Below, in pieces: positions 17,514 through 60,978 of a DNA stretch of 64,000 nt (positions are counted from its first letter, which is position 1; each line of letters opens with the position of its first letter). The translations under genes and the position numbers were made by a program. The stretch is from the NCBI RefSeq assembly GCF_963675165.1, contig NC_087379.1, forward strand, positions 6,658,839 to 6,722,838, in the 5' to 3' direction. This DNA is from Halichondria panicea. Taxonomy: Eukaryota > Porifera > Demospongiae > Suberitida > Halichondriidae. The notes below the pieces were generated by a model. It was not told the DNA's origin. It was given only the letters and a program-made list of their open reading frames with translations, and did no database searches.

Positions 17514-17548
<35 letters not shown>

Positions 17549-20214: not shown

Positions 20215-23188
20215 TTAGTACTTGTGCTGTTTCTTGGTGTTGAGGGAATAGTAACCAGACTTGATCCGACATGTGATGAATAGCCAGCTCAGGACAATCA
20301 CTAGTAGAGCCACAATTATTGCTGTGATCAGGAACGTTACTATAATCCCCACGGCAACGTAGGTACCATCCACATAGCCACTGGCTGTGGCACTTTGGGT
20401 ACTGCATAATGGAGGACCTGTGTATGTAGGAGAAATAAGGAGTAAATTATCATTAAGTGGTAAGTGACTTTAAAAGCTTCATCTGTCTTAGCTTGTTTAT
20501 TGCACATTGTAAATCTAACCAGTAGAATTCGATGACGGTGGGGTGATAGGTGGTGGACAGGTAGTAGGGGGCAGTGTAGGGGGCAGTGTAGGGCATGTAG
20601 GGCACGATACTTCAGTAGGTGGTGGGCAGGTTGGGGGAGGCGTTGTAGGAGGGCACGAGACTTCAGTAGGTGGTGGGCAGGTTGGGGGTGACGGTTCTGT
20701 CGTAGGGCACATGGGTGGAGTCATTATAGGGGGGCATGTAGGGCATGTGATCTCAGGAGGACAGGTAGTGGGGGCCATTGTAGGGGGGCATGTGATCTCA
20801 GGAGGACAGGTAGTGGGAGCCATTGTAGGGGGGCACGTGATCTCAGGAGGACAGGTAGTGGGGGCCATTGTAAGGGAGCATGTAGGGCATGTGATCTCAG
20901 GAGGACAGGTAGTGGGAGCCATTGTAGGGGGGCATGTGATCTCAGGAGGACAGGTAGTGGGGGCCATTGTAGGGGGGCACGTGATCTCAGGAGGACAGGT
21001 AGTGGGGGTCATTGTAGGGGGGGTCATTGTAGGGGGGCATGAGCTCCCTGGAATTGGAAAATACAGAATGCAGTGTGTGCATTCATTGCTGTCAATCAGA
21101 CTCACCTGTGTACTGTATCAGACTACTGTACAGTCCAGGGCCAATAGATGTCCTTGCTCGTACCTGAAGAATTTTAGATCTTACATATACGTATAATGGA
21201 TTGTAATGCTTACTGAAACTCGAATGTTACTGCCAAGATTTCTGATATTATCGTCAGTAACAACGTGATAGCTCTCAGATGGCAACTTGTTGACAGTGCG
21301 AGTTAAGGATCCAGAAAACCTTAACTGGTAGACAGTAATAACTCCATTAGGCTCAGCTGGGGGTCCCCACACAACAACTCCTGAGAATACCTGGACATCT
21401 CGTGGGACACTCGGAACTGCAAAGTCAGTCAGTTATTGTAAGTAAGCATACAATATAGTGTTTTGAGAAGAATCAAAAGATAAAGGTTTCCAAACTAATT
21501 CTCTTACCCCCCTCCCCTGTTCTGGTTGGAAGGTCTACTCTCCTTAGAGCTTCGTTCTCAGTATCTTGGTCGCTGACTCCATTGTGAGTGGTCACTCGTA
21601 TGGTGTAGGGTGTGTTGGGACGCAGGTTAGGGACTGTGTAGGAGACTGTGAGTACAGAATTGACATAGTTTCCATTGCTGAGTATGAACGACCCAGTGTT
21701 AGGATCACTGTACTCAATGGAGTAGTAGAAGTCATCTCTTCCGGTGACCTCAGGTCTGGTCCATAAGAGGCTAACACTAGTGGAAGTGATGGTGGTTGTA
21801 AGGAGGTTTCTTACTGGGCCAGGGGGAGCTGTATTGACAAGTGATGACATAATTATAATTATAATTATAGGTATTCCGAATTTGTATAGGTTCAACTTAC
21901 GTGTACAAGTCACTCCAGGTCCTTCATTAGTTTGCTCATCTCTGTAGAATCCATCCAGACAGCTGCAAATTGGAGCACCCTCCACATCCATTGCTGTGTT
22001 TATTGGACAATCTAGACAAGTGCCTTGGTCATCAGTTAGAGAGCGATAGGTTCCAGAAGGGCATTCTATTGTGGAAAATTGCATGCATGAAACAATACTC
22101 AATAGAATACCTTCACATCGATGTGTTCCATCTGCATTCACGATCAGTTTGTACCCAGCATCACAGTCACACCTTACGTTGCGCTCACATCTTTCATCAC
22201 CAGTAGTTCCATCAATGGCACTGAGAGCTCTGAAGGTGAGAGAGGTGGTGGGGTGAGAGTTGGGAGCACAGCAAGCCATGCCCTCGTTTGGTAGAGAGCC
22301 GCTGGGGGCACGAACAAGCTCAGGATAGTTGACCAGTCCATCTTGTCGTTCCTTACAAGGTGTGTAGTAGAAGAAGATTCGGTTAATTTGGCCACAATTT
22401 CCAGAGTCTCTGATGCCAAAATGGAATCCATTGGTTCTCGAGGAGAAGGGAGAAGTAATGGTAAGAGTTCTAGTGTCTGAAACAGTCCCACCACTCCCTG
22501 TCTGATCCAATCGAGATGTTGTCATATCTCCAAACAACGGAGTAGAGAGGTAATTGCTTCTGTCTGTTCGGTCACTCTCTGAGGCAATGCTGTTTGTGTC
22601 ATATCTGTATAGATCAGCAAAGTTATTCACACAGGCATCATTACACTGAGTGAATCTGAAGGAGACATCGAGATAGATCTCTGTTGGTAGACCCCCACCA
22701 AGGGTAGTACTTCCTGGGGGGTATTTGATGTGAGGGGAGAACACCCAGTTGTCTTGAGCTCCTAGTGTATAGGCACACACTCTCAAACCACGCTGACAGA
22801 TACCACCTCGATCCTCCCACTGATCAGCCACTGTCTGCAATGAAGGAAAGGATACTTAATTACATAAATATCGTCAAATTTGTCTCACCGGCACAGCTTC
22901 ATCATTGTCAAACTCTCTGCTGAGGAACACTGGCCCCACCAAGCTCTCGTAGTCATAAGAGTCAAACATCAGCTCCCACTCCGGGGGAAGAACGTGATCA
23001 GGTGAAAATCGGAAACTGGTGTGACATTGGTCAGTCGACGAGGTGATTAGTCGATCCTTTGGTGCACAGTTGTCAACACCCTGGCTGTTAATGCAGTAAC
23101 CATGGATAACTGGTGGTTGACATGTTGGAACCAGTGCAGACACTTGCACCACCAGAGCAGCAGCAACAGCAAGAATCCACAAATTCAT
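20215..23188 (-). CDS. Kinase-less Eph-like single-pass membrane protein
   Basis: Eight exons: 23188-22889, 22834-22111, 22065-21901, 21828-21508, 21416-21214, 21163-21106, 21047-20520, 20417-20215. They join in frame to about 833 residues. Order: signal peptide (1-19); ephrin-receptor ligand-binding domain (about 35-330; EWELMFDSYDYES, QDNWVFSPHI, FHFGIRDSGNCGQINRIFFY, CDCDAGYKL); GCC2/TNFR-like Cys module (CPSGTYRS...CSCLDGFYRDE); FN3 (TGRDDFYYSIEYSD); FN3 (PPAEPNGVI...VRARTS); about 176 residues of Thr/Pro/Cys repeats; transmembrane helix (about 787-813); tail CRIKSGYYSLNTKKQHKY. The ectodomain order equals that of vertebrate Eph receptors, but kinase and SAM domains are absent, and this is a true end (TAA after the tail). 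The tail holds a YYSL tyrosine-sorting-type motif. It may act as a ligand-binding adhesion protein or decoy; this is inferred. No damage was seen in any exon. Confidence 0.87.
20520..21047 (-). repeat. Thr/Pro/Cys (CPPT) repeat exon of the 23188-20215 gene
   Basis: Phase 1-1 exon of 528 bp coding for tandem units such as TMAPTTCPPEITCP and PPPTEVSCP. The DNA units are about 48-60 bp and nearly identical. It forms a stalk between the second FN3 and the membrane. The long open frame on the opposite strand (GGHVISGGQVVGA...) is its shadow. Confidence 0.85.
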
Positions 23189-24694: not shown

Positions 24695-27600
24695 TTAAGC
24701 TATAATGTTTGCACATATTCGGTGAAGGTTACCATCGTTGTTGGGCACAGTACAACAGTACAGTCCAGGGATTGCAGCTTGACCAGTGAATATCTTATTC
24801 TTATTGAGTCGAACCAGTTGAGAATCACGGTTGCGATACAATTCATTATTGAATGCTCTAATACTTAATTCAACACCGTGGGGATCGTAGCATTGTCCGA
24901 TCTTTTGCACTTTGCAGCAATCCTTAATTTCTGTTCGGAAGATGAGAGCTTCATCAGTTTCACCGATATCTTCGAGGGAGATACTACTGCCATTAGCGAA
25001 GGTTTCTCCTCTTAGCATGAACCCAATAGCATCTAAGACAGAAAAATAAGATGATTAAATCTCTAACAATATTTAACGAATACCACAATAAGCCATATAA
25101 ACATACCTTGTTGGCAAGTAGGTGCATTTCCACAACATTGCCCATTAGGTAAACAGGTTCTTCTTGAAGAGTCACTCAGAGTGTAACCAGGGTTACAGGT
25201 GTAGGTGGCCAGACTTCCTACAGCTATTGAAAGAGACAACACTCGCACTCCTCCATTAGCCGGATTGGAAAGTACAGGGCAGGTTACTGGAGGTGGTGCT
25301 TCACCTGTACGTACAGTGTGGAGGGTAACTAGGTCACCAAATGAAAGTATGGACTCTCATACCTGCTACGATGTTGACGTAAACACTTCTTGTCACTCCA
25401 CTTGCATCAGGGATGGCACATCTGTATCTACCCAGTGGAGAGGTCGCACCGTTCCTTCTGTTGAGACCAATAAACTGTTCTCCTCTGTTTCTGTATAAGG
25501 AATTTATGCTGGAGAAACCGACAGCTGTACCATCAGGATAGAAGAACTCTCCCTCATCAGGTGGGTCACAGCACTCAGTGTTGTCAGTCACACACAACAG
25601 AGCGTTATCTCCCTCTCCAATATCAGTGATCATCACAGTGTCTCCATCAGTGTAATTCTTTCCACGCAACATGAAATACACGTCACCTGTAATAGGTACG
25701 ATTAAAGCTACAAGCACAATGTGACATTCCTCACCTTGTTCTGGGGGACATGTTGTTGGGGGTGGTGGGCAGGTTGTGACTGGACAAGGAGTGGACGGTT
25801 CTGTTGGAGCGCACGTAGGTGGAGGTAGTGTAGGGGGGCATGTAGGGCACGTGGGTGGAGGCAGTGTAGGGGGGCACATAGGGCAGGAGACTTCAGTACA
25901 GGGGGTAGGTGGTGGACAGGCAGTAGAGGGAAGTGTAGGAGGGCAGGTTGGGGGAGGTAGTGTAGGGGGGCACGAGACTTCAGTAGGTGGTGGGCAGGTG
26001 GTTGTAGTTACAGTTGGACACATTATCACAGGAGGCATGGTTGATGCTTTAATTTGAATATGGAGTTCATAAACATAAAAACAATGACTATGATATACCT
26101 ATGTTGATGAAAATGCTTCTTGTCACTCCACTTACATCAGGGATGTCACATCTGTATCTACCCAGTGGAGAGGTGGCACCGTTCCTTCTGTTGAGACGAA
26201 TAAACTGTTCTCCTCTGTTCCTGTATAAGGAATTTGTCAGCGAGAAGCCGACAGCTGTACCATCAGGATAGAAGAACTCTCCATCGCCACCTCAGCGACA
26301 GCACTCAGTATTGTCAGTCACACACAACAGAGCGTTATCTTCCTCTCCAATATCAGTGATCAGCAATGTGTCTCCATCAGTGTATGTCCTCCCACTCAAC
26401 ATAAAATGCACATTATCTGTGGGCATAAATTCCACCCTAAAAATAATGCATCACTATATATAAGTCTAACCTAATGGGGTAGGTGTAGGGAAAGTTTGAC
26501 AAGGAGTGGACGGTTCTGTTGTGGGTGGAGGCAGCGTAGGGGGGCACATAGGGCACGAGACTTCAGTACAGGGGGTAGGTGATGGGCAGGTGGTAGGGGA
26601 CATTGTAGGGGGGCATGTAACCTCAGGACAGGGGGTAGCTGGTGTACAGTTTGGAGGGGGTACTGTAGGGGGGCATGTAGGGCACGAGGCTTCGGTACAA
26701 GTTGGGCAGGTGGTTGTAGTTACAGTTGGACAGTCAGTGGGTGTGGGGAGAGTTGGACACGTCATCACAGGAGGCATGGTTGATGCTGTGGAGATTGAAT
26801 AGATTTCATCATAAACAATGACTATGACATACCTATGTTGATGAAGATGCTTCTTGTCACTCCACTTGCATCAGGGATGGTACATCTGTATCTACCCAGT
26901 GGAGAGGTGGCACTGTTTCTTCTGTTGAGACCAATAACTTGTTCTCTTCTGTTCCTGTATATGGAGTTTGATGTGGAGAAGCCGACAGCTCTACCATCAG
27001 GATAGAAGAACTCTCCACGGCCACCTGTGCGGCAGCACTCAGTATTGTCAGTCACACACAACAGAGTGTTATCTTCCTCTCCAATATCAGTGATCAGCAA
27101 TGTGTCTCCATCAGTGTACATCCTCCCACTCAACATGAAATGCACATTATCTGTGGGCATAAATTCCACGCTAAAATAAAATTCACATTACTACGAGAAG
27201 TAAGTCTAACCTAACGTGGTGGGTGTAGTAGGGAAAGTTGGACAAGGAGTGGATGGTTCTGTCGTAGGGCATATAGGTGGAGTCATTGTAGGGGAGCATG
27301 TAGGGCATGTGATCTCAGGAGGACACGTAGTGGGGGCCATTGTAGGTTGAGTTCCTTGGAATTGGAAAGTACAGAAAGCACTATAATTATTCAGACTCAC
27401 CTGTGTACTGTATCAGACTACTGTATGTTCCAGGGCCAGCAGATGTCCTTGCTCGTACCTGAAAATTAAATTCTGCTAGACAGACATATAGAATTCTAGT
27501 GCTTACTAAAACTTGAATATTACTGCCGAGATTTCTGATATTATCGTCAGTAACAACGTGATAGCTCTCAGATGGCAACTTGTTGACAGTGCAAGTGAAG

Positions 27601-29841
27601 GATCCAGAAAACCTCAACTGGTAGCCAGTGATAACTCCATTAGGTTCAGCTGGGGGTCCCCACACAACAACTCCTGAGAATACTTGGACATCTCGTGGGA
27701 CACTTGGAACTGCAAGGTCACGTGAAAGCATATGTAACGATAAATACATTATTAAAAGCTTTCCAACTAGTAAGTAACGTTTCAATTACTTACCCCCCTC
27801 CTCTGTCCTGATTGGGAGGTCCACTCTCCTCAGAGCTTCATTCTCAGTGTCTTGGTCGCTGACTCCATTGTGAGTAGTCACTCGTATGGTGTATGGTGTG
27901 TTGGGATGCAGGTTAGGGACTGTGTAGGAGACTGTGAGTGCAGAATTGACATAGTTTCCATTGCTGAGTATAAACGACCCAGTGTTGTCAGGGTCACTGT
28001 ACACGATGAAGTAATATAAGCCATTTCCGGTAACCTCAGGTCTGGTCCATAAGAGAGTAACACTAGTTAAAGTGGTGGTTGTCACGCGGAGGTTTCTCAC
28101 AGGGTCGCTTAGAGGTGTGCAATCCAATGAAAGGTCCGGTGTGGGTCTCCGGAATCCATCCAAACACTGGCACATTGCAGCACCTTCCACATCCATTACA
28201 GTGTTCCTTGGGCAATCGAGACAAGCTTCATTAGAACTATATCTCCCAGCAGGGCACACTGTAAAAGATCATAAACTCAATTTAATTAGCCAGGCTTGTT
28301 ATTACCTACCTTCACATTCTGTTCTATCTTCATTGAATCCGTACCCAGCATCACACTCACACCTTACGTTGTGTTCGCATCTTCCATCACTGGCACTGTG
28401 AGCTCTGAAGGTGAGAGAGGTGGTGGGGTGAGAGTTGGGAGCACAGCAAGCCATGCCCTCGTTTGGTGGAGAGCCGCTGGGGGCACGAACAAGCTCAGGA
28501 TAGCTGACCAGTCCATCTTGTCGTTCCTTACAAGGTGTGTAGTAGAAGTAGATTCGGTTAATTTGGCCCCAATTTCCAGAGTCTCTGATGCCAAAATGGA
28601 ATCCATAGGTTCTCGAGGAGGGAGAAGCAATGGTAAGAGTTCTAGTCTCTGAAACAGTCCCACTGCTCCCTGTCTGATCCAATCGAGATGTTGTCATCTC
28701 TCCAAACAACGGAGTGGAGAGGTAATTGCTTCTGTCTGTTCTGTCACTCTCCGAGGCAATGCTGTTTGTGTCATATCTGTATAGATCAGCAAAGTTATTT
28801 ACACAGGCACCATTACACTGAGTGAATCTGAAGGAGACGTTGAAGTAACCACGCTGACAGATACCACCTCGATCCTCCCACTGATCAGCCACTGCCTGCA
28901 ATGAAGGAAGGGATATAATTAATTATTATACCGTATAGCGGGTAAGTTTCGTGGGGTAAAAAATTCGTTCAACTCGAGAAACGGCGGTTTTCGTGAGTAA
29001 AATTTTGGTTTAGTCTCATTGCCTGCACTGCATTCCTACGTTCCGGTAAGCCACGCCTACGTTAAAATTTCGTGGAGGTCAGCTTGCCCATGAAAATAAC
29101 GAATACTTACCCCACGAAAATTAGCTGCTATACAGTAGCGGGTAATTTTTTTTGTGGGGTAAAAATATTCCTTATTTTTGTGGTCAAGCTGCATGACCTA
29201 CACGCAAAATTTTCCTCCAAAAACGTAGGGGTGGCATACCGGAATGCGTAATGAAGCCAAACGAATTTTTACTGGCAAAATCACCGTATTCGAGTTAAAC
29301 GAATTTTTTTACGCCCTGAAAATTACCCGCTAAAACAAAATACTCGTTATTTTCGTGGGAAAGCTGACCTCCATAAAATTTTAACGTAGGCGTGGCTTAC
29401 CGGAACGTATGAATGCAGTGCAAGCAATGAAACTTAACGAAATTTTTACTCCTAAAAACCACTGTTTTCGAGTTGAACGAATTTTTACCCAACAAAAATT
29501 ACCCGCTATACGGTATATGGTACATAAATGTTTCTACATATTGTCTCACCAACACATCTCCATCATTGTCAAACTCTCTGCTGAGAAACACTGGCCCCAC
29601 TAAGCTCTCGTAGTCATAAGAGTCAAACATCAGCTCCCACTCTGGGGGAAGGATCAGGTGAAAATCGGAAACTGGTTCGACATTGGTCAGTTGACGAGGT
29701 GACCAATCGATCCTCTGGTGCACAGTTGTCAACACCCTGGCTAATGCAGTAACCATGGGGATCTGGTGATTGACATGTTGGAACCAGTGCAGACACTTGC
29801 ACCACCAGAGCAGCAGCAACAGCAAGAATCCACAAATTCAT
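24695..29841 (-). CDS. Eph-like secreted gene with Ig-like and Sushi modules, damaged
   Basis: Thirteen exons: 29841-29550, 28895-28310, 28258-27794, 27709-27507, 27458-27401, 27354-27211, 27150-26833, 26785-26471, 26416-26099, 26046-25735, 25686-25363, 25304-25107, 25032-24695. Order: signal peptide, Eph LBD, GCC2 and FN3 fused on one exon, FN3, then CPPT/Ig-like pairs three times, Sushi, and a final Ig-like module ending CANIIA and stop; no membrane segment. Compared with sister genes there are four lesions: a 5-bp loss in exon 1 (after FRFSPD) that breaks the frame; an in-frame loss of about 37 residues in the LBD (the QDNWVFSPHI region); Cys to Trp in DSGNWGQINR; and a TGA in the Ig-like exon at 26099-26416 (after ECCR). 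The last could be skipped because the exon is phase 1-1. Either a pseudogene in an early stage or a gene used through alternative starts and splicing. Confidence 0.68.
25735..26046 (-). repeat. CPPT repeat exon
   Basis: Phase 1-1 exon of 104 codons in the 29841-24695 gene, with units such as TLPPPTCP and PPPTPCTEVSCPMCP, between two Ig-like exons. Confidence 0.75.
26471..26785 (-). repeat. CPPT repeat exon
   Basis: Phase 1-1 exon of 105 codons in the same gene, a paralogue of 25735-26046 with the same first codons (ASTMPPVM). Confidence 0.75.
28931..29513. mobile_element. TIR element in intron 1 of the Eph-like gene
   Basis: Inverted ends CCGTATAGCGGGTAA and TTACCCGCTATACGG, flanked by TATA on both sides (28927-28930 and 29514-29517). 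The inside contains a second set of the same motifs (near 29120-29150 and 29320-29345), so it looks like a nested or dimeric MITE. Shorter relatives are at 42412-42560 and as fragments near 31865. Confidence 0.8.
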
Positions 29842-30149: not shown

Positions 30150-33100
30150 TCACAATACAATATTAACACACACTTTGTCAGTTACTACTACGCCAGTTTC
30201 AGTCTCTGAGCTGGGTACATCACAACAATAGAGTCCTGGCAGAGCTGCATTACCCGTGTAAGACTGGCGATTCAACCGAACAAGTTGACGTCCTCTTTTT
30301 CGATAAAGCTGATTTCTCGTGGTTCGTATATTAATCTGTCCTCCATCGGGTCCGTAACATTCTCCAATCCTCTCTGCTCGGCAACAATCAGTGAAATCAG
30401 TTCGAAAAATCAATCCATTATCGCCTTCACCAATATCACTTAGTAGTACACTTGAGCCGTTTGAAAACAATGTTCCTTTTAGTTCAAATGTGGCTGGAGA
30501 ATTATGTAAGAGTCATAGTAATATAATGATATGAGCAGCATACGAAGATAGAGCTATGTAGCAAGCAAACAACTTATTATGCAATACTACAAACGATCCG
30601 TACATGTACATACATGTATACATGCATGTACGATAAACAAATTGAGTGGGCTGGTATGCATTATTTCCTCACATTCACAGCTAGGGGAAGGATTGGTCCA
30701 TGCAGCGGAGAGTTGACACACCCTCTCTCTGGGTCCAGAGATTATGAAGCCAGGCTCACACGAGTAGCTAGCCACAGAACCAACAGAATTGTTCGACTTT
30801 GACACGGCTCCATTCTCTAGTGACTCCAGCTCATCACACTCAAAACCTACAGTGGGAATTAGAACACTGTTGAGTCTCCCATGAACAGTATCATATGGCT
30901 AGGGATACTACTAAATTCTGCACCTTAATTAACTAACCAGTATAATTCAAGGATGGTGCGGCAGAAGGAGGGGGGCATGTGACAGTCGGATAGTCTCTGG
31001 GTGTGGGGGTAGGAGGGCATGTGACTGTCGGACAGTCTCTGGGTGTGGGCGTAGGGGGGCATGTGACAATCGGACACTCCCTGGGTGTGGGGGTAGGAGG
31101 ACATGTGACAATCGGACAGTCCCTGGGTGTGGGCGTAGGGGGGCATGTGACAATCGGACAGTCCCTGGGTGTGGGGGTAGGGGGGCATGTGACAGTCGGA
31201 CAGTCTATGGGCGTGGGGGAAGGGGGAATTGTGAACTCAGCGCATTCGGAGGGAGGACAGGTTGAACATTCACCAACTGTATAATTATATATAATAATAT
31301 AGGTGTCATGTTATCTGTGGATATAGTATAATTATACTAACCTTGGTGACCAATATTGATGAATACGCTTGTTGTCACTCCATTTGCATCAGGGATGGCA
31401 CATCTGTATCTACCTAGTGGAAAGGTGGCGTTGTTCCTTCTGTTGAGACTAATAAACTGCTCTCCTCTGTTCTTGTATAAGGAATTTGAGGTGGAGAAGC
31501 CGACAGCTGTACCATCAGGATAGAAGAACTCTCCATTGCCCCCTGTGCGGCAGCACTCAGTGTTGTCAGTCACACACAACAGAGCATTATCTCCCTCTCC
31601 AATATCAGTGATCATCACAATGTCTCCGTCAGTGTACTTTCTCCGACGGAGACTGAAATATACATCATCTGCATGTGGGGTATATATGCATAAAACTATA
31701 CTAAGTCTTGTATAAATTTCACCTTGTTCTGGAGGAGATGTGGTGGGCGTAGGGCAAGCTATGGAGGGTACTGTGGGGGGGTGGGGTATAGAGATGATTG
31801 ATAAGACTGTGTGCAATAATGCGAGCACAAAGGATGTATTCACAGAAGCCTCATTTGTATTATATACCGTATAGCATACAATTTTGGCAGGTGAAAAATC
31901 TTCGCTATTGGCTTGAGAGCCCTCAGAAGATTTTCGTGCGTTGTATAATATTCGCGTTTCAATGCCAGGAAACCCACCCACCCACTAAGAGCTTTGCATG
32001 TGAAAAACCGTTGAGTTTTATCCCAGTTTAAATTTTCTGGTTAACTGCTATATATCTTTAAAAAATTTATACCTCACGAAAATTTCCCGCTGGCGTGATG
32101 CTACGACTAATTTATGTCCCAAGGGCATATAATTATCAATGCATAAATAAAATACACCTTTACTCAAAATGCTCTATTAAATTAGTGTGGTTTGCAATGT
32201 TAGCCCCATACTGGGGGATTTGACCTGGCTTTGCGTAGTAGAGACTGCTTGTATAACCTGTTTGGATGTGTGCAACTGCTTGCTTAGGGCTCAAAAACCC
32301 CCTGTTGACTGGGGGATTTGAACACCTTCCTCCACCAGGGGGAATTTGATCTGAGGTATGGTAAAATCCCCATGCTAGCCCTCCCCCTCCCGGGGGGGGG
32401 GCGACACATTGATAGGTGCATAAACCGTACTATTGACTTCTACAATTAAGACTCTGATTTTAATATTTAATGTCAATACATATATCAGTCGCGGCTGTTA
32501 TTCGAAAACAAGTCCCTGTGCAATTACGTCGTCCATGACAACGTGCAAATACTGGTCCAGATGTGATGCGTGATATTATTAATGCACTACTTCACTGTAC
32601 AAATTCCAGTGCACTAAATAGTACATCATACGATTATTATGTATAACTCTCCTTCATTGCATTGGTCGGTGCATGTGCTGCATAACAATACATGCACATA
32701 CGTACCGGGTATAGCAACAGCATTGATGGATTATGCTGTTGCATGAACTCACCTGTGTACTGTATTAAAGCACTAGATGGTCCAAAACGAGATGTATTTG
32801 CTCGCACCTGAAGTTAACAAAAAACTGCAATATACATACATGTAATTATAGGATTGAATTTCTTACTGAAACTCGAATATTACTGCCAAGATTTCTGATA
32901 TTATCGTCAGTAACAACATGGTAGTTCTCACACGGCAACTTGTTGACAGTGTGAGGAGAGGAAGATCCAGAAAACCTCAACTGGTAGCCAGTAATAACTC
33001 CATTAGGCTCAGCTGGGGGTCTCCACACAACAACTCCTGAGAATACTTGAACATCTCGTGGGACACTTGGAGCTAGAAAATAGTCGTAATTATATAGTGT

Positions 33101-36100
33101 TGTATTGAGGGAAACTTTTGTACCTCTCTCCAATGTTTTGATTGGAAGGTCTACTCTTCTTAGAGCTTCATTCTCGGTGTCTTGGACACTGACTTCATTG
33201 TGAGCGGTCACTCGTATGGTGTATGGTGTGTTGGGACGCAGGTTAGGGACTGTGTAAGAGACTGTGAGTGCAGAATTGACATAGTTTCCATTGCTGAGTA
33301 TAAACGACCCAGTGTTAGGATCACTGTACTCAATGGAGTAGTAGAAGAAGTCATCTCTTCCGGTGACTTCAGGTCTGGTCCATGAGAGGCTAACACTAGT
33401 GCAAGTGATGGTGGTTGTATGTACGTTTCTTACAGGACCAGGGGGAGCTGTATTTATAACATAAACTGCACGAAGAGAAAGATTTCCACTAACTTTCTTA
33501 CCTCCATCCCTTGTTCTGACTAGAAGGTCTACTCTCCTCAGAGCTTCATTCTCATTGTCCTGGTCACTGACTCCATTGTGAGTGGTAACTCGTATGGTGT
33601 ATGGTGTGTTGGGACGCAGGTTAGGGACTGTGTAGGAGAATGCAGAATTGACATAGTTTCCATTGCTGAGTATGAATGACCCAGTGTTAGGATCACTGTA
33701 CTCAATGGAGTAGTAGAAGTTATATATTCCGGTGCCCTCAGGTCTGGTCCATGAGAAGCAGACACGAGTGGCAGTGATGGTGGTTGCATGTAGGTTTCTT
33801 ACAGGACCAGGGCGAGCTGTATTTATTAATAATCATAACAGTAAATATTCAGTTTACCTGTACAATCGCCTTGCCCATCTCTGAAGAATCCATTTAGACA
33901 GCTGCAAATCGAAGCACCCTCCACATCTATTGCTGTGTTCATTGGACAATCTATACAAGTGCCTTGGTCATCGGTCAAAGAACGATAGGTTCCAGCAGGG
34001 CAAACTGGAAGAAGCATAAACTCAAAAAGTTAACCAACGCTATTACCTTGACATCCTGTTCTAGCTGCATTCAGTCTGTACCCAGCATCACACTCACACC
34101 TTACGTTGCGCTCACATCCTTCATCACCAGTAGCTCCATCAGTGGCACTGTGAGCTCTGAAGGTGAGAGAGGTGGTGGGGTGAGAGTTGGGAGCACAGCA
34201 AGCCATGCCCTCGTTTGGTGGAGAGCCGCTGGGGGCACGAACAAGCTCAGGATAGTTGACCAGTCCATCTTGTCGTTCCTTACAAGGAGTGTAGTAGAAA
34301 TACATTCGGTTAATATTGCCACAATTTCCAGAGTCTCTGATACCAAAATGGAAGCCGTTGGTTCTCGAGGAGGAGGGAGAATCAATGACAAGCGTTCTAG
34401 TATCTAAGTTAACCGCTTGTTGCAGTCGAGATGTTGTCATCTCTGTTCCTGTTCCAAACATTGGAGTGGAGAGGTAATTATTTCTGTCTGTTCGGACATT
34501 CTCCGAGGCAATGCTGTTTGTGTCATATCTGTATAGATCAGCAAAGTTATTCACACAGGCACCACTACACTGAGTGAATCTGAAGGAGACATTGAAGTAG
34601 ATCTCTGTTGGTAGACCCCCACCAAGGGTAGTACTTCCTGGGGGGTATTTGATGTGAGGGGAGAACACCCAGTTGTCTTGAGGTCCAAAAGAATAGGCAC
34701 ACACTCTCAAATTGTTCTGACAGACAACACCTCGCTGCTCCCATTTATTGCTCTGAAGGAAAGGATATAATTTAGTGCATATAAAAGCATCATCTACTAT
34801 CTAGATCTATAAAAATGTTGTCTCACCGACACATTTCCATCATTATCAAACTCTCTGCTGTGGAACACTGACCCCACCAAGCTCTTGTAGTCATAAGAGT
34901 CAAACATCAGCTCCCACTCTGGGGGAAGGATGTGATCAGCTTTGAATCGGGAGTCATTTCGACACAAGTCTTCCGCGGAGATGATCAGTCGATCCTCTGG
35001 TGCACAGTTGTCAACACCCTGGTTGCAGTAACCATGGGGATCTGGTAGTTAAGTGCATAAAGCTATACATGTAAAAGGTGCCATTTCTTACTTTGTACAG
35101 TGGGGCATGTGCTGGTTGTTGGAGGACAGGTTGTGACTGGACAAGGAGTGGACGGTTCTATTGGATGGCACGTGGGTGGAGGCAGTGTAGGGGAGCATGT
35201 AGGGCATGAGATCTCAGGAGAACATGTACTAGGTGGTGCACAGGTGGTGGGGAGTGAAGAGGGGCATGAAGGGCATGAGGTGGGTGAAAGGGCACCTGGA
35301 AGCATACAATGCAAGCTAGCATTTTTACATTTACATTATACTGTGGGACTCACCTGTATACGGTATTGAATTACTGTACGGTCCATAGCCAGCAGATGTC
35401 CTTGCTCGTACCTGAAGTAATAAAATGAGCACTGCAAGTACAAAATTATAATAATTTACTTCAATACTACTGCCGATATTATTGTCAGTAACAACGTGAT
35501 AGCTCTCATATGGCAACTTGTTGATAGTACTAGTACGACTGAGGGATCTAGAAAACCTCAACTGGTAGCCAGTAATAACTCCATTAGGCTCAGCTGGGGG
35601 TCCCCACACAACAACTCCTGAGAACACTTGGACATCTCGTGGGACACTTGGAACTGCAAGTAAAAGCAATTAAGGTGACATATTTTCGCTGGTGCAATTT
35701 CGGTGAATGAGAGTAAAATCGCAAAAATAAATGTTTACTCGCAGATATTGGAAAATGCATTAAAACGACTTGCGAGTAATTAGAAACCCTACATTAATTT
35801 CACAACTTGAGCAGATTTAATACCAACAAACGAGCTAAACAGTGAATTCGTACAAATCTAACTGTGAAAACATATCACCTTAAGGTAGTTCTAATTCTCT
35901 TACCCCCCTCCACTGTCCTGGTTGGAAGGTCCACTCTCCTCAGAGCTTCATTCTTAGTGTCTTGGTCGCTGACTCCATTGTGAGTGGTCACTCGTATGGT
36001 GTATGGTGTGTTGGGACGCAGGTTAGGGACTGTGTAGGAGACTGTGACTGTAGAATTGACATAGTTTCCATTGCTGAGTATGAACGACCCAGTGTTAGGA

Positions 36101-39100
36101 TCACTGTACTCAATGGAGTAGTAGAAGTCATCTCTTCCGGTGACCTCAGGTCTGGTCCATGATATACTAATACTGGTAGAAGAGATGGTGGTGTTACGGA
36201 GGTTTCTTACGGGACCAGGGGGAGCTGTATTGATGTGATAACATGTGTACGTAATAAATATTTAGCTTAATTTACTTGTACAATCCTTTTTAGATCCTCC
36301 TCTATAGAATCCATTTAGACACCTGCAAATTGCAGCACCCTCCACATCTGTTGCTGTGTTCATTGGGCAATCTATACAAGCTCCTTGGTTATCAGTCAGA
36401 GAGCGATAGGTTCCAGCAGAGCAAACTGTAAAGGAGCATGAACTCAATATGTTAACTACCTAAGATTTCATTACTTTGACATCTCATTACTGCACTCAGT
36501 CTGTACCCAGCATCACACTCACACCTTACGCTGCGCTCACATCCTTCATCACCAGTAGTTTCATCACTTACTACTTCGTCTTCACATCTTCCCTCACTGG
36601 AAGTGTAAGCTCTGAATGTGAGAGAGGTGGTGGGGTGAGAGTTGGGAGCACAGCAAGCCATGCCCTCGTTTGGTAGAGAGCCACTGGGGGCACGAACAAG
36701 CTCAGGATAGTTGACCAGTCCAACTTGTAGTTCTTTACAAGGTATGTAGTAAAAATAGATTCGGTTAATTTGGCCACAATTTCCAGAGTCTCTGATGCCA
36801 AAATGGAATCCATTGGTTCTCGAAGAGGGGGGAGAATCAATGACCAGAGTTCTAGTATCTGAAACAGTCCTTCTGTGACCTGTTTGATCCAATCGAGATG
36901 TTGTTATCTCTGTTCCTATTCCAAACAACGGAGTGGAGAGGTATTTGCTTCTGTCTGTTTGGTCACTCTCTGAGGCAATGCTGTTTGTGTCATATCTGTA
37001 CAGATCAGCAAAGTTATTCACACAGGCACCATTACACTGAGTGAATCTGAAGGAGATATTGAAGTAGATCTCTGTTGGTAGACCCCCACCAAGGGTAGTA
37101 CTTCCTGGGGGGTATTTGATGTGAGGGGAGAACACCCAGTTGTCTTGAGCTCCTAGTGTATAGGCACACACTCTCAAACCACGCTGACAGATACCACCTC
37201 GATCCTCCCACTGATCAGCCACTGTCTGCAATGAAGGAAAGGATACTTAATTACATAAATATCGCTACCTTTTGTCTCACCAATACAGCTTCATCATTGT
37301 CAAACTCTCTGCTGAGGAACACTGGCCCCACCAAGCTCTCGTAGTCATAAGAGTCAAACATCAGCTCCCACTCCGGGGGAAGGATGTGATCAGGTGAAAA
37401 TCGGGAACTAGTTCGACATTGGTCAACTGATGAGGTGACCAAGCGATCCTCTGGTGCACAGTTGTCAACACCCTGGCTAATGCAGTAACCATGGAGATCT
37501 GGTTGGTAGCATTAAAATAAAGAAAAAGAAACACATCATTCACCTTGTTCTGGGGGACATGTTGTTGGAGGTGGTGGGCAGATTGTGACCGGACAAGGAG
37601 TGGACAGTTCCGTTGTAGGGCACGTGGGTGGAGGCAGTGTAGGGGGGCACATAGGGCATGAGACCTCAGTACAGGGGGTAGGTGGAGGACAGGTGGTGGG
37701 GGAAATTGTATGAGGGCATGAAGGGCATGAGATGGGAGAAGGGGCACCTGGAATTAATTGGATTTAATGTTAGCATTTACGTTACTGTGGAACTTACCTG
37801 TGTACAGTGTTGAATTACTATACGGTCCATAGCCAGCAGATGTACTTGCTCGTACCTGAAATAAATAATTAAACTGCAAGTACATCTACGTATAATATAA
37901 TTTTTACTTGAACATTACTGCTGAGATTTCTAATATTATATTCAGTAACAATGTGAAAGCTCTCAAATGGAAGCTTGTTGACAGTTCGATTAAAAGATCC
38001 AGAAAACCTCAACTGGTAGCCAGTGATAACTCCATTAGGCTCAGCTGGGGGTCCCCACACAACAACTCCTGAGAACACTTGGACATCTCGTGGGACACTT
38101 GGAACTGCAAAGTCAGTCAGTTATTGTAATAAGCATGTAATGATAAGCTGCTAGAAAATAAAGTTTCTCTTACCCCCCTCCCCTGTTCCGGTTGGAAGAT
38201 CCATTCTCCTCAGAGCTTCATTCTCAGTGTCTTGGTCACTGACTCCATTGTGAGTGGTCACTCGTATGGTGTATGGTGTGTTGGGACGCAGGTTAGGGAC
38301 TGTGTAGGAGACTGTGAGTGTAGAATTGACATAGTTTCCATTGCTGAGTATGAACGACCCAGTGTTAGGATCACTGTACTCAATGGAGTAGTAGAAGTCA
38401 TCTCTTCCGGTGACCTCAGGTCTGGTCCATGAGAGGCTAACACTAGTGGAAGTGATGGTGGTTGTACGGAGGTTTCTTACTGGGCCAGGGGGAGCTATAT
38501 TGACAAGTGATAATATAATTATAGGTATTCCGAATCTGTATTGTTTCAACTTACGTGTACATGTTACTCCAGGGCCTTCGTTAGGTTGCTCATCTCTATA
38601 GAACTCATTTAGACAGCTGCAAATTGCAGCACCCTCCACATCCATTGCTGTGTTCATTGGACAACTGAGACAAGCTCCTTGGTCATCAGTCAGAGAGCGA
38701 TAGGTTCCATCAGGGCAAACTGCAAAAAGTTAAAGGAAACATAAATTATATATAAACTCAAATAAGCTAAGACCTGTTATTACCTTGACATCCTGTTCCA
38801 GCTGCATTCAGTCTGTACCCAGCATCACACTCACACCTTACGTTGCGCTCACATCCTTCTTCATCACCAGTAGTTCCATCAGTGGCACTGTGAGCTCTGA
38901 AGGTGAGAGAGGTGGTGGGGTGAGAGTTGGGAGCACAGCAAGCCATGCCCTCGTTTGGTGGAGAGACGCTGGGGGCACGAACAAGCTCAGGATAGTTGAC
39001 CAGTCCAACTTGTCGTTCCTTACAAGGTGTGTAATAGAAGTAGATTCGATTAATTTGGCCACAGTTTCCAGAGTCTCTGACGCCAAAATGGAATCCATTG

Positions 39101-39845
39101 GTTCTCGAGGAGGAGGGAGAAGCAATGGTAAGAGTTTTAGTATCTGAAACAGTCCCTCTGTGACCTGTCTGATCCAATTGAGATGTTGTCATCTCTGTTC
39201 CTGTTCCAAACAACGAAGTGAGGTAATTGTTTCTGTCTGTTCGGACACTCTCTGAGGCAATGTTGTTTGTGTCATATCTGTATAGATCAGCAAAGTTATT
39301 CATACAGGGACTGTTACACTGAGTGAATCTGAAGGAGACGTTAAAGTAGATCTCTGTTGGTAGACCCCCTCCAAGAGTAGTACTTCCTGGGGGGTATTTG
39401 ATGTGAGGGGAGAACAACCAGTTGTCTTGAGCTCCCAGTGTATGGGCACACACTCTCAAACCGCGCTGACAGATACCACCTCGATCCTCCCACTGATCAG
39501 CCTGCAATGAAGGAAAGGATACAATAAAATATTGCTAGATACTTGTCTCACCGACACATCTCCATCATTGTCAAACTCTCTGCTGAGGAACACTGGCCCC
39601 ACCAAGCTCTCGTAGTCATAAGAGTCAAACATCAGCTCCCACTCCGAGGGAAAGATGTGATCCCTCATAAATCGGAAACTGGTTCGACATTGGTCAGTGG
39701 ACGAGGTGACCAAGCGATCCTCTGGTGCACAGTTGTCAACACCCTGGCTAATGCAGTAACCATAGGGATCTGGTGGTTGACATGTTGGAACCAGTGCAGA
39801 CACTTGCACCAGAGCAGCAGAAATAGCAAGAATCCATAAATTCAT
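30150..39845 (-). CDS. Giant secreted protein with three Eph ectodomains plus Ig-like and Sushi
   Basis: Twenty-six exons join in frame to about 2350 residues. Module 1: 39845-39552, 39501-38784, 38719-38555, 38494-38174, 38104-37908, 37855-37798. CPPT: 37747-37544. Module 2: 37498-37281, 37225-36475, 36425-36276, 36224-35904, 35653-35460, 35411-35354. CPPT: 35295-35092. Module 3: 35041-34827, 34752-34047, 34004-33858, two FN3a exons (33816-33502 and 33447-33124), 33072-32867, 32807-32753. Then 31770-31723 (short CPPT), 31668-31342 (Ig-like), 31276-30938 (CPPT), 30846-30673 (Sushi) and 30493-30150 (Ig-like, ending VNIVL and stop). Each module is LBD, GCC2, FN3, FN3; module 3 has an extra FN3 and is the most divergent (NKWEQRGVVCQN). 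Only module 1 has a signal peptide. No membrane helix, kinase or SAM. I found no stop or frameshift in the joined exons. Probably a secreted multivalent binder; ligand unknown. Confidence 0.8.
30938..31276 (-). repeat. CPPT repeat exon, RDCPTVTCPP type
   Basis: 113 codons with about six copies of a 60-bp unit coding roughly CPPTPTPRDCPIVT. The unit differs from the APTTCPPEIT type of other genes, showing independent expansion. Confidence 0.8.
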
Positions 39846-44835: not shown

Positions 44836-47800
44836 TCAAGCTATGATGTTTGCACATATTCGGTGAAGGTTACCATCGTTGTTGGGCACAGTACAACAGT
44901 ACAGTCCAGGGATTGCAGCTTCACCAGTGAATATCTTATTCTTATTGAGTCGAACTAGTTGAACATCACGGTTGCGGTACAATTCATTATTGAATGCTCT
45001 AATACTTAATTGGACACCGTTGGGGTCGTAACATTGTCCGATCTTTTGCACCTTGCAGCAATCTTTAATTTCTGTTCGGAAAATGAGAGCTTCATCAGTT
45101 TCACCGATATCTTCGAGGGAGATACTACTGCCGTTAGCGAAGGTTTCTCCTCTTAGCATGAACCCAATGGCATCTACAACAGAAAAATAACAATATTAAT
45201 TTTAATTAATGATTGGGAAGATAGAATACCACAATAAGCAATATAAACATACCTCGTTGGCAAGTAGGTGCATTTCCACTCCACTGCCCATTAGGCAAAC
45301 AGGTTCTTCTTGAAGAGCCACTCAGAGTGTAGCCAGGGTTACAAGTGTAGGAGGCAAGACTTCCTATAGCTATTGAAAGAGATAACACTCGTACTCCGCC
45401 ATTAGCCGGATTGGAAAGCACAGGGCAGGTTACTGGAGGTGGTGGTACTTCACCTGTATGTACAGTGTGGAGGGTAACTAGGTCACCAAATGAAAAGTAT
45501 GGACTCTCATACCTGCTACAATATTGACGTAAACACTCTTGTCACTCCACTTGCATCAGGGATGGCACATCTGTATCTACCCAGTGGAGAGGTGACACCG
45601 TTCCTTCTGTTGAGACGAATTAACTGCTCTCCACTGTTCCTGTATATTGAATTTATGCTGGAGAAGCCGACAGCTGTACCATCAGGATAAAAGAACTCTC
45701 CATCGCCACCGCGGCAGCACTCAGTGTTGGCAGTCACACACAACAGAGCGTTATCTCCTTCTTCAATATCAGTAATCATCACAATGTCTCCATTAGTGTA
45801 ATTTTGTCCACGCAACATGAAATACACGTCACCTGTAAAAGTATGCTATACAAGCACAATGTGATATTCCTCACCTTGCTCTGGGGGACATGTTGTTGGA
45901 GGTGGAGGGCACGTTGTGAGTGGACAAGGAGTGGACAGTTCCGTTGTAGGGCACGTGGGTGGAGGTAGTGTAGGGGGGCACATAGGGCATGTGGGTGGAG
46001 GGAGTGTAGGGGGGCACATAGGGCATGTGGGTGGAGGTAGTATAGGGGGGCACATAGGGCATGTGGGTGGAGGGAGTGTAGGGGGGCACATAGGGCATGA
46101 GATCTCAGGAGGACAGGTAATGCAAGAGTTCCCTGGAATTGGAAAGTATAGAATGCAATGTGTGCACTATAATTATTCAGACTCACCTGTGTACTGTATC
46201 AGACTACTGTATGGTCCAGGGCCAGCAGATGTCCTTGCTCGTACCTGAAAATTAATTCTGCGCTAGAAAGACATATAGAATTCTCGTGCTTACTGAAACT
46301 TGAATATTACTGCCAAGATTTCTGATATTATCGTCAGTAACAACGTGATAGCTCTCAGATGAAAACTTGTTGACAGTATGAGTGAAGAATCCAGAAAACC
46401 TCAACTGGTAGCCAGTAATAACTCCATTAGGCTCAGCTGGGGGTCCCCACACAACAACTCCTGAGAATACTTGGACATCTCGTGGGACACTTGGAACTGC
46501 AAAGTCATGTTGAAAGCATATGTAATGATGATGTAGTTTTTTTTTACAAAGATCAAAGGAAAAACTATGCTAACAAATGCCATAGACTAGGATCTACAAC
46601 TGCATGCAGTAACCACAGACCGTGCTCTATTATTCTGTGGTTAGCATTTTGCTCTTTGGAACAACTTGGTAGTTAGAGCAGGCTAGGGTAGTTAGAGCAC
46701 GGTTGTCAAAATAACTGATTTTTAAGCCATAAAATTAGAATAGCTATACAACTGCTCCATGGTTGCAATGCGAGTACAGCTAAGTGATTCTATAAGCTTC
46801 TATAGCAATACTATCTTGCTAACAAAGGATTTTATTCTCGAGTAAAGGCTAGTTTTGCTTACTAGTACATTGAGGCCAATGCAGTCTCTCCAGAATCAGG
46901 AATAGTAAAATCGTTTTGTAGAAGGTTGATTCTAGTTAGCTCTATACTAGAGCCGATAGCTATATATATTGGTAGCTGCAAGAAGCTAAAAACTACAAAC
47001 CAGTTGATGCACTGTTTTACGCTCGTGCTCTATGGATATTATTTGCCTCGCGGAAGTTCTCGAAGCATCATGTAGCTCGAGGCGAAAGTTTGGCCAATAA
47101 TATCCATAGAGCACTCGCAACCATGCATTAACTAGTACTTGTGCACATAGATAAAGTTTTCCAACTAGTAAGTATATACGTTTCAATTACTTACCTCCCT
47201 CCCCTGTTCTGGTTGGAAGATCCATTCTCCTCAGAGCTTCATTCTTAGTATCTTGGTTGCTGACTCCATTGTGAGTGGTCACTCGTATGGTGTATGGTGT
47301 GTTGGGACGCAGGTTAGGGACTGTGTAGGAGACTGTGAGTGCAGAATTGACATAGTTTCCATTGCTGAGTATGAACAACCCAGTGTTAGGATCACTGTAC
47401 TCAATGGAGTAGTAGAAGTCATCTCTTCCAGTGACCTCAGGTCTGGTCCATGAGAGGCTAACACTAGTGAAAGTGATGGTGGTTGTACGGAGGTTTCTTA
47501 CTGGGCCAGGGGGAGCTGTATTAACGAATGATAACATGTTGATACTCTAAATCTCTGTAGGTTCAACTCACTTGTACAAGTCACTTCAGGTCCTTCATTA
47601 GTTTGCTCATCTCTAAAGAATTCATTTAGACAGCTGCAAATTGCAGCACCCTCCACACCCATTGCTGTGTTCATTGGACAATCTAGACAAGTGCCTTGGT
47701 CATCAGTCAGAGAGCGATAGGTTCCAGAAGGGCATTCTATTGTGGAAAATTGCATGCATGAAAACAATTACTCAATAGAATACCTTGGCATCCTGTTCCA

Positions 47801-48859
47801 GCTGCATTCAGTCTGTACCCAGCATCACACTCACACCTTACGTTGCGCTCACATCCTTCATCACCAGTAGTTCCATCAGTGGCACTGTGAGCTCTGAAGG
47901 TGAGAGAGGTGGTGGGGTGAGAGTTGGGAGCACAGCAAGCCATGCCCTCGTTTGGTAGAGAGCCGCTGGGGGCACGAACAAGCTCAGGATAGTTGACCAG
48001 TCCATCTTGTCGTTCCTTACAAGGTGTGTAGTAGAAGTAGATTCGGTTAATTTGGCCACAATTTCCAGAGTCTCTGATGCCAAAATGGAATCCATTGGTT
48101 CTCGAGGAGGAGGAAGAAGGAATGGTAAGAGTTCTAGTATCTAATACAGTTGACCTATGACCTGTCTGATCCAATCGAGATGTTGTCATCTCTGTTCCTG
48201 TTCTAAACAACGGAGTGGAGAGGTAATTGTTTCTGTCTGTTCGGACACTCTCTGAGGCAATGCTGTTTGTGTCATATCTGTATAGATCTGCAAAGTTATT
48301 CACACAGGCACCATTACACCGAGTGAATCTGAAGGAGACATTGAAGTAGATCTCTGTTGGCAGACCCCCACCAAGGGTAGTACTTCCTGAGGGGTATTTG
48401 ATGTGAGGGGAGAACACCCAGTTGTCTTGAGGTCCCAGTGTATGGGCACACACAAACAAACCACGCTGACAGATACCACCTCGATCCTCCCACTGATCAG
48501 CCACTGCCTGCAATGAAGGAAAGCATACTTAATTACATAAATATAGTTACATTTTGTCTCACCGATACATCTCCATCATTGTCAAACTCTCTGCTGAGGA
48601 ACACTGGCCCCACCAAGCTCTCGTAGTCAAAAGAGTCAAACATCAGCTCCCACTCCGGAGGAAGGTTGTGATCAGTTGAAAATCGGAAGCTGGTTCGACA
48701 TTGGTCAGTTGGTGAGGTGACCAAGCGATCTTCTGGTGCACAATTGTCAACACCCTGGCTAATGCAGTAACCATGGGGATCTGGTGGTTGACATGTTGGA
48801 ACCAGTGCAGACACTTGCACCACCAGAGCAGCAGAAACAGCAAGAATCCACAAATTCAT
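44836..48859 (-). CDS. Eph-like secreted protein with Ig-like, Sushi and Ig-like modules
   Basis: Ten exons: 48859-48563 (signal peptide MNLWILAV... and LBD start), 48507-47784 (LBD), 47736-47572 (GCC2), 47515-47195 (FN3), 46496-46294 and 46244-46187 (FN3), 46132-45875 (CPPT), 45832-45513 (Ig-like, FFYPDGTAV and RYRCAIPDAS), 45453-45253 (Sushi), 45173-44836 (Ig-like, ending CANIIA and stop). No membrane segment or kinase. Exon 45832-45513 is 320 bp instead of a multiple of 3: one T is missing near 45537, so the frame after GVTR changes and stops at about 45516. Without the defect the protein would be about 960 residues; with it, the Sushi and last Ig-like modules are lost unless the exon is skipped, which would keep frame. 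Intron 4 (46497-47194) holds a hairpin sequence. The 24695-25304 end of the sister gene is a close paralogue. Confidence 0.78.
45875..46132 (-). repeat. CPPT repeat exon, PMCPPTLPPPTC type
   Basis: 86 codons. Four near-perfect copies of a 48-bp unit coding CPMCPPTLPPPT, then a nonrepeated Pro-rich end. Phase 1-1. Confidence 0.82.
47025..47114. repeat. Hairpin in an intron
   Basis: GTGCTCTATGGATATTA and its complement lie about 55 bp apart, with further pairing (GCCTCG / CGAGGC) inside. Possibly the core of a degenerate element. Confidence 0.55.
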
Positions 48860-59100: not shown

Positions 59101-60978
59101 CTCTCAGATGGCAACTTGTTTACAGTGCGATTGAAGGATCCAGAAAACCTCAACTGGTAGCCAGTAATAACTCCATTAGGCTCAGCTGGGGGTCCCCACA
59201 CAACAACTCCTGAGAATACTTGAACATCTTGTGGGACACTTGGAACTGCAAAGTCATTTAGTTAATAGAAGCAGTATTCCATAGTTCTGAACTGCTTACT
59301 TCCTTCTAATGTCCTGATTGGAAGGTCCACTCTCCTCAGAGCTTCATTTTCAGTGTCTTGGTCGCTGACTCCATTGTGAGTGGTCACTCGTATGGTGTAT
59401 GGTGTGTTGGGACGCAGGTTAGGGACTGTGTAGGAGACTGTGAGTGTGGAATTGACATAGTTTCCATTGCTGAGTATGAACGATCCAGTGTTAGGATCAC
59501 TGTACTCAATGGAGTAGTAGAAGTCATCTCTTCCAGTGACCGCAGGTCTGGTCCATGAGAGGCTAACACTATTGTTAGTGATGGTGGTTGTACGGAGGTT
59601 TCTTACAGAGCCAGGGGGAGCTGTATTGACAAGTAATGACATCTAGGTACTCTAAATGTTTACGTTAAACTTACACGTGCAATTCACTCCAGGGCCTTCA
59701 TTAGTTTCCTCATCTCTAAAGAATCCATTTAGACAGCTGCAAATTGCAGCACCGTCCACATCCATTGCTGTGTTCATTGGACAATCTAGACAAGTGCGTT
59801 GGTCATCATTCAGAGAGCGATAGGTTCCAGCAGAGCAAACTGTAAAAAGTTAAAGGAAACATTATTATATAAACTCAATTAATTTGCTAAGGCCTGTCAT
59901 TACCTTCACAACCTGTTCCAGTTGCATTCAGTCTGTACCCAGCATCACACTCACACCTTACGTTGCGCTCACATCCTTCATCACCAGTAGTTCCATCAGT
60001 GGCACTGTGAGCTCTGAAGGTAAGAGAGGTGGTAGGGTGAGAGTTGGGAGCACAGCAAGCCATGCCCTCGTTTGGTGGAGAGCCGCTGGGGGCACGAACA
60101 AGCTCAGGATAGTTGACCAGTCCATCTTGTCGTTCCTTACAAGGTGTGTAGTAGAAGTAGATTCGGTTAATTTGGCCACAATTTCCAGAGTCTCTGATGC
60201 CAAAATGGAATCCATTGGTTCTCGAGGAGGAGGGAGAAGTAATGTAAAGAGTTCTGGTCTCTAAAACAGTCCCACTGCGACCTGTCTGATCCAATCGAGA
60301 TGTTGTCATCTCTGTTCCTGTTCCAAACAACGAAGTGAGGTAATTGTTTCTGTCTGTTCGGACACTCTCTGAGGCAATGCTGTTTGTGTCATATCTGTAT
60401 AGATCTGAAAAGTTATTCACACAGAGACTATTACACTGAGTGAATCTGAAGGAGACATCGAGATAGATCTCTGTTGGTAGACCCCCACCAAGGGTAGTAC
60501 TTCCTGGGGGGTATTTGATGTGAGGGGAGAACAACCAGTTGTCTTGAGCTCCCAATGTATAGGCACACACTCTCAAACCACGCTGACAGATACCACCTCG
60601 ATCCTCCCACTGATTAGCCACTGTCTGCAATGAAGGAAAGGATACTTAATTACATAAATATCGTCAAATTTGTCTCACCGGCACAGCTTCATCATTGTCA
60701 AACTCTCTGCTGAGGAACACTGGTCCCACCAAGCTCTCGTAGTCATAAGAGTCAAACAACAGCTCCCACTCTGGGGGAAGAACGTGATCAGGTGAAAATC
60801 GGAAACTGGTTCGACATTGGTCAGTCAACGAGGTGATTCGTCGATCCTCTGGTGCACAGTTGTCAACACCCTGGCTAATGCAGTAACCATGGGGATCTGA
60901 TGGTTGACATGTTGGAACCAGTGCAGACACTTGAACCACCAGAGCAGCAGAAACAGCAAGAATCCACAAATAATTCAT
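53193..60978 (-). CDS. Secreted protein with two Eph ectodomains and Sushi modules
   Basis: Exons: 60978-60679, 60624-59904, 59839-59675, 59620-59300, 59245-59049, 57535-57478 (module 1: signal peptide MNYLWILAV, LBD, GCC2, FN3, FN3); 57419-56649 (257-residue CPPT stalk); 56589-56372, 56321-55604, 55559-55395, 55339-55016, 54962-54760, 54702-54645 (module 2, no signal peptide, begins NPHGYC); 54587-54432 (52-residue CPPT); 53737-53561 and 53500-53330 (Sushi, CPSLTSPTNGRV and CPELSQPSDGTV). Frame is kept across all junctions with no stops. The 3' end is uncertain: the last donor reads gtggtt, which is weak; reading on gives a stop at 53193 and about 1619 residues. Otherwise it would splice toward the decayed exons at 51.7-49.2 kb. 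No membrane helix seen. Intron 5 is long (57536-59048) and holds an inserted element. Confidence 0.78.
56649..57419 (-). repeat. Largest CPPT repeat exon
   Basis: 771 bp in one phase 1-1 exon. About 13 units of TMAPTTCPPEITCP, some with an added TCSP or IA, in near-identical DNA units of about 48-60 bp. It joins Eph module 1 to module 2. The 405-codon open frame on the plus strand is its complement. Confidence 0.88.
57966..58303. mobile_element. GGGCGTAACTA-ended TIR element
   Basis: Ends CATGGGCGTAACTA and TAGTTACGCCCCTG, 338 bp, inside intron 5 of the two-module gene. A second shared motif (GCCTCCT / AGGAGGC-like) lies just inside. No coding capacity. Confidence 0.55.

Follow-up and report, generated by a model that had tools for sequence, protein, structure and literature searches.

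Gene Structure and Domain Content

The window analyzed here is a 64,000-nucleotide stretch of the genome of the sponge Halichondria panicea (C3:6658839–6722838; contig C3, which is distinct from module C3 mentioned below, belongs to a 131.5-Mb assembly of 39 contigs), and its minus strand carries gene C, a predicted gene with three ectodomains of the Eph receptor type. Gene C was rebuilt exon by exon: 26 exons (39845–30150, minus strand) were joined into 2350 codons with a sole terminal stop. All 25 introns had GT-AG borders; 22 of them were 41–91 bp long, and the other three measured 179, 250, and 982 bp. The rebuild confirmed the stop-free frame of 26 exons and 2350 residues reported in a first-pass annotation made from the sequence alone.

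Each of the three modules (39845–37798, 37498–35354, and 35041–32753) contained, in the same order as Eph receptor tyrosine kinases, a ligand-binding domain (LBD) with conserved cysteines, a sushi-like cysteine-rich domain (CRD), GCC2 (Ephrin_rec_like), and FN3. Two FN3 domains were found in modules 1 and 2 and three in module 3, so that the LBD-GCC2-FN3-FN3 formula of the first-pass annotation held for the first two modules and failed for the third. As that annotation had also described, Cys/Pro/Thr-rich stalks separated the modules, and the 3′ end consisted of an Ig-like domain, a stalk, a Sushi domain, and a second Ig-like domain; a short stalk preceded these, and the assignment of the two Ig-like domains to the Ig fold is tentative. 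Unlike Eph receptor tyrosine kinases, gene C had three ectodomains in its predicted chain, Cys/Pro/Thr stalks, and Ig-like and Sushi ends, while a transmembrane-like stretch and, throughout the surrounding array, a kinase match were lacking.

Pfam, PDB sequence, and predicted fold all place the LBDs of gene C in the Eph family: the three domains scored 33.5, 31.4, and 33.7 bits with PF01404 (cut-off of 27), a PDB sequence search matched EphA2 (E of 2.7e-4), and 46 Eph entries ranked first in VIA-align. Three spike proteins (best E of 0.0088) and a MafB2 toxin (0.54), returned by the single-sequence PDB search, were judged to be chance matches. The identity of the gene C LBD with Eph-type LBDs L001–L010 of the same genome was 27–31%. 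The fn3 profile was above its cut-off in all three modules, and PF07699 (Ephrin_rec_like) only in module 3 (28 vs. 23.1); for modules 1 and 2 this profile gave no listed match, although homology shows the corresponding exon to be present there.

The N terminus of gene C was signal-peptide-like, judged by eye and by likeness across the array genes. A simple hydropathy scan of the minus strand (20000–64000) detected three transmembrane-like stretches elsewhere and none in gene C. Both features suggest that the product is secreted, and the soluble form put forward in the first-pass annotation stands to this extent, as a prediction.

Surrounding Array

Genome-wide, PF01404 gave 26 matches (24 above the cut-off), 14 of which were located in one array of about 143 kb (C3:6.68–6.82 Mb). 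A domain map of 194 kb placed on the minus strand genes A, B, C (three LBDs), fragment D, genes E and F, and a divergent gene G; the plus strand carried six more LBD modules, and behind five of these lay Ig-like or Sushi domains (window features are given in Table 1). Gene F, with two ectodomains, was built by the same rules as gene C. We failed to find a kinase in the 194 kb by tblastn with two kinases of the same genome (no match at E ≤ 1); this search replaced a whole-genome kinase family scan, which scored 129 of 1749 candidates and was uninformative for the array. With its terminal exon (20417–20215), gene A may add a membrane-bound kinase-less Eph-like protein to the array.

Table 1. Features of gene C and of neighboring array genes (positions within the window)
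Feature	Position	Strand	Remark
Gene C, exon 1: ATG start with signal-peptide-like stretch MNLWILAISAALVQVSA, and the N-terminal portion of LBD 1	39552..39845	-	cleavage site by eye
Gene C, module 1, exons 2–6: LBD and sushi-like CRD, GCC2, FN3a, FN3b	37798..39501	-	
Gene C, exon 7: Cys/Pro/Thr stalk 1	37544..37747	-	
Gene C, junction intron before module 2: 45 bp, phase 1, stop in stalk frame	37499..37543	-	acceptor at the low end among 37 others
Gene C, module 2, exons 8–13: no start codon or signal peptide	35354..37498	-	
Gene C, exon 14: Cys/Pro/Thr stalk 2	35092..35295	-	
Gene C, junction intron before module 3: 50 bp, phase 1, stop in stalk frame	35042..35091	-	acceptor weak, donor strong
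Gene C, module 3, exons 15–21: additional FN3	32753..35041	-	
Gene C, exon 22: short stalk, 3′ of the 982-bp intron	31723..31770	-	
Gene C, exon 23: Ig-like domain 1	31342..31668	-	
Gene C, exon 24: Cys/Pro/Thr repeat stalk	30938..31276	-	
Gene C, exon 25: Sushi domain	30673..30846	-	PF00084, 40 bits
Gene C, exon 26: Ig-like domain 2 with terminal stop; transmembrane-like stretch absent	30150..30493	-	
Gene A: one ectodomain, long stalk, exon 20417–20215 with transmembrane-like stretch and short tail	20215..23188	-	last exon by eye
Gene B: broken copy, frameshift in exon 1, part of LBD deleted	24704..29841	-	
Fragment D: fragmentary broken copy	44254-41857	-	
Gene E: single ectodomain, Ig-Sushi-Ig end	44836..48859	-	domain map only
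Gene F: open over 16 exons (1574 aa); signal peptide and first module, then a long stalk, a second module lacking a signal peptide, another stalk, and two Sushi domains	53330..60978	-	3′ end provisional
Gene F, junction intron from stalk to second LBD: 59 bp	56590..56648	-	acceptor weak

Module Junctions

Among the 14 LBD first exons examined, 11 had an in-frame start and a hydrophobic stretch. The three without these (C2, C3, and F2, the second LBD of gene F) each followed a stalk exon. The gaps of 45 and 50 bp before C2 and C3 leave no room for a promoter and a signal peptide. Each junction intron had one frame-keeping acceptor, a CAG before AT (by eye), located where the signal-peptide exons have a coding CAG. 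The same pattern was found at all three junctions (C2, C3, and F2) and suggests that a stalk exon became joined to a truncated first exon inside the array. The junction donors were strong (7.9–9.0 vs. a mean of 7.6). Retention of the three junction introns, which would end the chain after the stalk via in-frame stops, was also considered; these introns are AT-rich and 45–59 bp long, the stops may well be due to chance, and no claim is made.

Divergence of the Modules

The modules of gene C differed from each other by 16–21% of amino acids, with synonymous divergence (dS) of 0.14–0.21, and for 15 of the 16 module exons compared the nearest relative was outside gene C. Such divergence disfavors an assembly duplicate; moreover, the 194 kb contained no ambiguous N. 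All 16 gap events among modules C1, C2, C3, F1, and F2 were multiples of three; three of them lie at exon ends with analyst-chosen borders and two pairs overlap, so that fewer are independent. Module C2 contained a 30-base insert. In pairwise, non-independent counts, exon length differences were multiples of three in 40 of 40 cases, and intron length differences below 40 bp in 9 of 37. The pairwise ratio of nonsynonymous to synonymous divergence (dN/dS) was 0.41–0.67, with dN below dS in all ten pairs of modules (Fisher p from 0.008 to 2e-6).

A tree of 13 LBD exons, in which eight of the ten inner branches were open, was set aside as evidence on a single origin of the modules, and only nearest-relative lists were used; C1–C3 stood on the same side of a branch with support of only 43/54, by which one origin is neither shown nor excluded.

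Database Models and Published Eph Architectures

Protein database searches (lengths 1292–4112, 348–1106, and 1087–3458) returned four proteins: P0001, P0002, and P0004 with one LBD each, and P0003, an unrelated FN3 protein. In the searches at lengths 1292–4112 and 348–1106, scoring was limited to the roughly 8000 candidates with the most words in common. Two of the proteins, P0001 and P0002 (named SVEP1-like), are models of plus-strand array genes. Like gene C, they have the same kind of first exons, an LBD module, and Ig-like, Sushi, and Ig-like domains; unlike it, they have one LBD and many Sushi domains. They link first exons at 136812–139842 to Sushi/Ig-like exons at 157774–163313 or up to 175739 (L035–L039): the first exons are shared, and the tails belong to two separate genes lying as much as about 36 kb further downstream. 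Whole LBD modules are passed over, and many blocks align to several places; the joins are either long-range (alternative) splicing or chimeric annotation. P0004 (375 aa, on a 5480-bp contig, source ENA) was 50% identical to an array LBD over half of the query and had a similar glycine-rich loop and a hydrophobic N-terminal stretch of its own; by this likeness, the LBD family extends beyond this contig.

Krishnan et al. 2019 (PMC6485061) reported 100 Eph-LBD proteins from sponges, 15 of them full-length, and mentioned Eph LBD forms without a kinase. In the portions of that paper covered, Eph-like proteins lacking a kinase are described from sponges, cnidarians, and ctenophores; these share with gene C an Eph LBD without a tyrosine kinase, and sponge Eph LBDs underwent a lineage-specific expansion, as in the gene C array. 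The proteins vary in FN3 number, length of the cysteine-rich part, and SAM; several LBDs per chain are not mentioned in these portions, nor in the parts of PMC6993872, PMC8242945, and PMC6526912 that were covered. Within the literature searched, Eph architectures have one LBD per chain and no protein with several was found, in agreement with the first-pass annotation, according to which no such Eph-family protein is known to have been described.

Interpretation of Gene C

We read gene C as a single transcription unit whose product would be a secreted protein derived from Eph, with several ectodomains and no kinase, and give this reading, based on sequence analysis, a probability of about 0.6. 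It would probably represent a real new domain architecture with up to three predicted ligand-binding units. One chain is the most economical explanation because modules 2 and 3 have neither start nor signal peptide, there is no room for a promoter, the exons are in frame, and the neighboring gene F has two LBDs. The single chain proposed earlier is favored by the beginnings of modules 2 and 3, by the fitting intron phases, and by gaps between modules in multiples of three, and is weakened by the junction acceptors, by the weak constraint, and by the lack of such a protein among those that the database searches returned.

Several observations weigh against this reading. When positions -20..-1 were scored, the junction acceptors reached 5.0 (C2), 1.5 (C3), and 0.0 (F2), compared with a minimum of 2.6 and a median of 8.9 for 37 other acceptors of genes C and F; two of them (C3 and F2) were thus below all 37. 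Still lower scores over these positions, from -0.8 to -1.9, were obtained for four homologous sites in signal-peptide exons that are presumably not spliced. At -25..+2, where the out-of-register site of gene A was dropped from ten sites, C2 scored 6.5, C3 0.0, and F2 -0.1, and three of the nine in-register signal-peptide-exon sites (1.4 each) exceeded the latter two. Windows of 12 or 6 bases barely separated the junctions from unspliced sites: at -12..-1 the values for C2, C3, and F2 were 2.0, 3.4, and 1.3 vs. 0.7–1.8, and at -6..-1 they were 2.1, 3.0, and 2.1 vs. 1.5–2.2. The scoring model is small and derived from related introns, and acceptor scores vary with the window.

Furthermore, none of P0001–P0004 has more than one LBD; an annotated three-LBD model of the lengths searched should have surfaced, because P0001 and P0002 come from the same contig, and the joins in these two models make gene borders in the array uncertain. 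Constraint on the internal modules was weak: single-copy changes in C2, C3, and F2 comprised 72 nonsynonymous and 33 synonymous ones (omega of about 0.67, p of 0.04). These modules are no more relaxed than others, since the corresponding numbers were similar in the signal-peptide copies A, C1, E, and F1 (41 and 20, p of 0.07) and in the plus-strand copies (45 and 20, p of 0.11). Judging by these counts, the entire ectodomain family either evolves rapidly or is mildly constrained. Finally, no ephrin was matched by PF00812 in this genome; no control genome gave a match either, so that this search is uninformative on absence.

A somewhat unlikely alternative is that modules 2 and 3 are cassettes which are mostly skipped, the stalk donors splicing directly to short-stalk, Ig, or Sushi exons; a single ectodomain would then be typical of the product, and the longer forms would be minor. 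The borders concerned are of phase 1, so that skipping would stay in frame, weak junction acceptors stand beside strong donors, and P0001/P0002 leap over whole LBD modules. However, the frames of modules 2 and 3 have stayed open and all their gaps are in frame, which is unexpected for an unused cassette, and the P0001/P0002 models may be chimeras of exons that are nearly identical. It is improbable that the array undergoes rapid birth and death and that gene C is a recent or failing fusion with no maintained product: its neighbors B and D are broken and constraint is weak, but 2350 codons remain free of stops, although about 4% of random changes in one module would create one, the gaps are in frame, and the internal modules show no additional relaxation.

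The two explanations that the first-pass annotation had set against its own are both highly improbable. Three separate genes would fit the likeness of each module to the front part of a gene with a single ectodomain; yet modules 2 and 3 lack an ATG and a signal peptide and are preceded by only 45 and 50 bp. An array of similar copies could invite a collapse or false tandem copies of one ectodomain in the assembly, against which stand the amino acid and synonymous divergence of the modules, the nearest relatives outside gene C, and the uninterrupted 194 kb.

In the transcription unit that we favor, gene C would have arisen within an array of single-ectodomain genes, probably through unequal exchange. 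A stalk exon may have been placed before the first exon of a copy, the signal-peptide half of which was lost, and a pre-existing coding CAG may have been turned into a splice acceptor; the frame would have survived the fusion because the borders are of phase 1. We infer from the gene model the splicing of the three modules into one mRNA, the secretion, the order of events, the ligand, and the avidity. In the product, Cys/Pro/Thr spacers would hold up to three ligand-binding units, with Ig-like, Sushi, and Ig-like domains behind them. The product would most likely be an extracellular avidity binder of a multivalent or membrane partner, which it might cluster, block, or mask. The candidate partner is either an ephrin or some other molecule bound by the same jelly-roll domain; a ligand other than ephrin is possible because the LBD is classed with galactose-binding-like domains in the portions of PMC6485061 covered. 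A role in recognition or immunity would also be in keeping with a tandem array that changes fast and contains Ig-like, Sushi, and FN3 domains.

Soluble Eph ectodomains and Eph-Fc reagents, which originate from splicing, shedding, or engineering, are extracellular, contain an LBD without a kinase, and have one LBD per chain, the Fc dimer conferring avidity. Gene C would have in common with them an LBD without a kinase outside the cell. A natural counterpart of Eph-Fc, namely soluble kinase-free chains with one to three LBDs, valency being set by the modules spliced in, which cluster membrane partners and thereby signal through them, or bridge cells, is a tentative and rather unlikely extension. 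Eph/ephrin molecules are described in the sections of PMC6993872 covered as forming signaling clusters, the size of which goes with signal strength.

If the favored reading is true, what is probably an early-branching animal lineage encodes in its genome a built-in multivalent form with two or three LBDs, and the Eph ectodomain has found a new use independently of the kinase. A simple route to multi-module proteins in a phase-1 array would also be shown, in which the signal-peptide half of an exon is lost and a CAG that is already there serves as the acceptor.

Other Eph-Type Loci and Flanking Genes

By tblastn, kinase exons were located at C3:6.310–6.312 Mb; upstream of them, on the same strand, are an Eph LBD, GCC2, FN3, and an EphA2_TM match. 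Scanning this locus for kinase motifs returned nothing. Exons of an ordinary Eph receptor are therefore present in the genome, in Eph order, and the kinase-less ectodomain family is, as far as domain content indicates, expanded apart from it.

Two close LBD pairs were considered as further multi-LBD chains and rejected, since they look like pairs of single-LBD genes with a transmembrane-like stretch each. At C3:302–311 kb (L041–L042), two LBD genes were 39–40% identical to an array LBD, with a transmembrane-like stretch after each and no kinase match within the 20 kb searched. At C3:5.290–5.314 Mb (L045, L049, and L050; the LBD pair at 5.303–5.309 Mb), two adjacent Eph-type LBD genes had FN3 and transmembrane-like stretches, with no kinase match within 24 kb.

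Beside the array, the window contained two genes which we take to be unrelated to it: an open reading frame with an acid-phosphatase-like RHGDRTP motif (14828–16146, minus strand) and an 858-residue open frame resembling a sorting nexin (17398–19974, plus strand), both recognized by eye.
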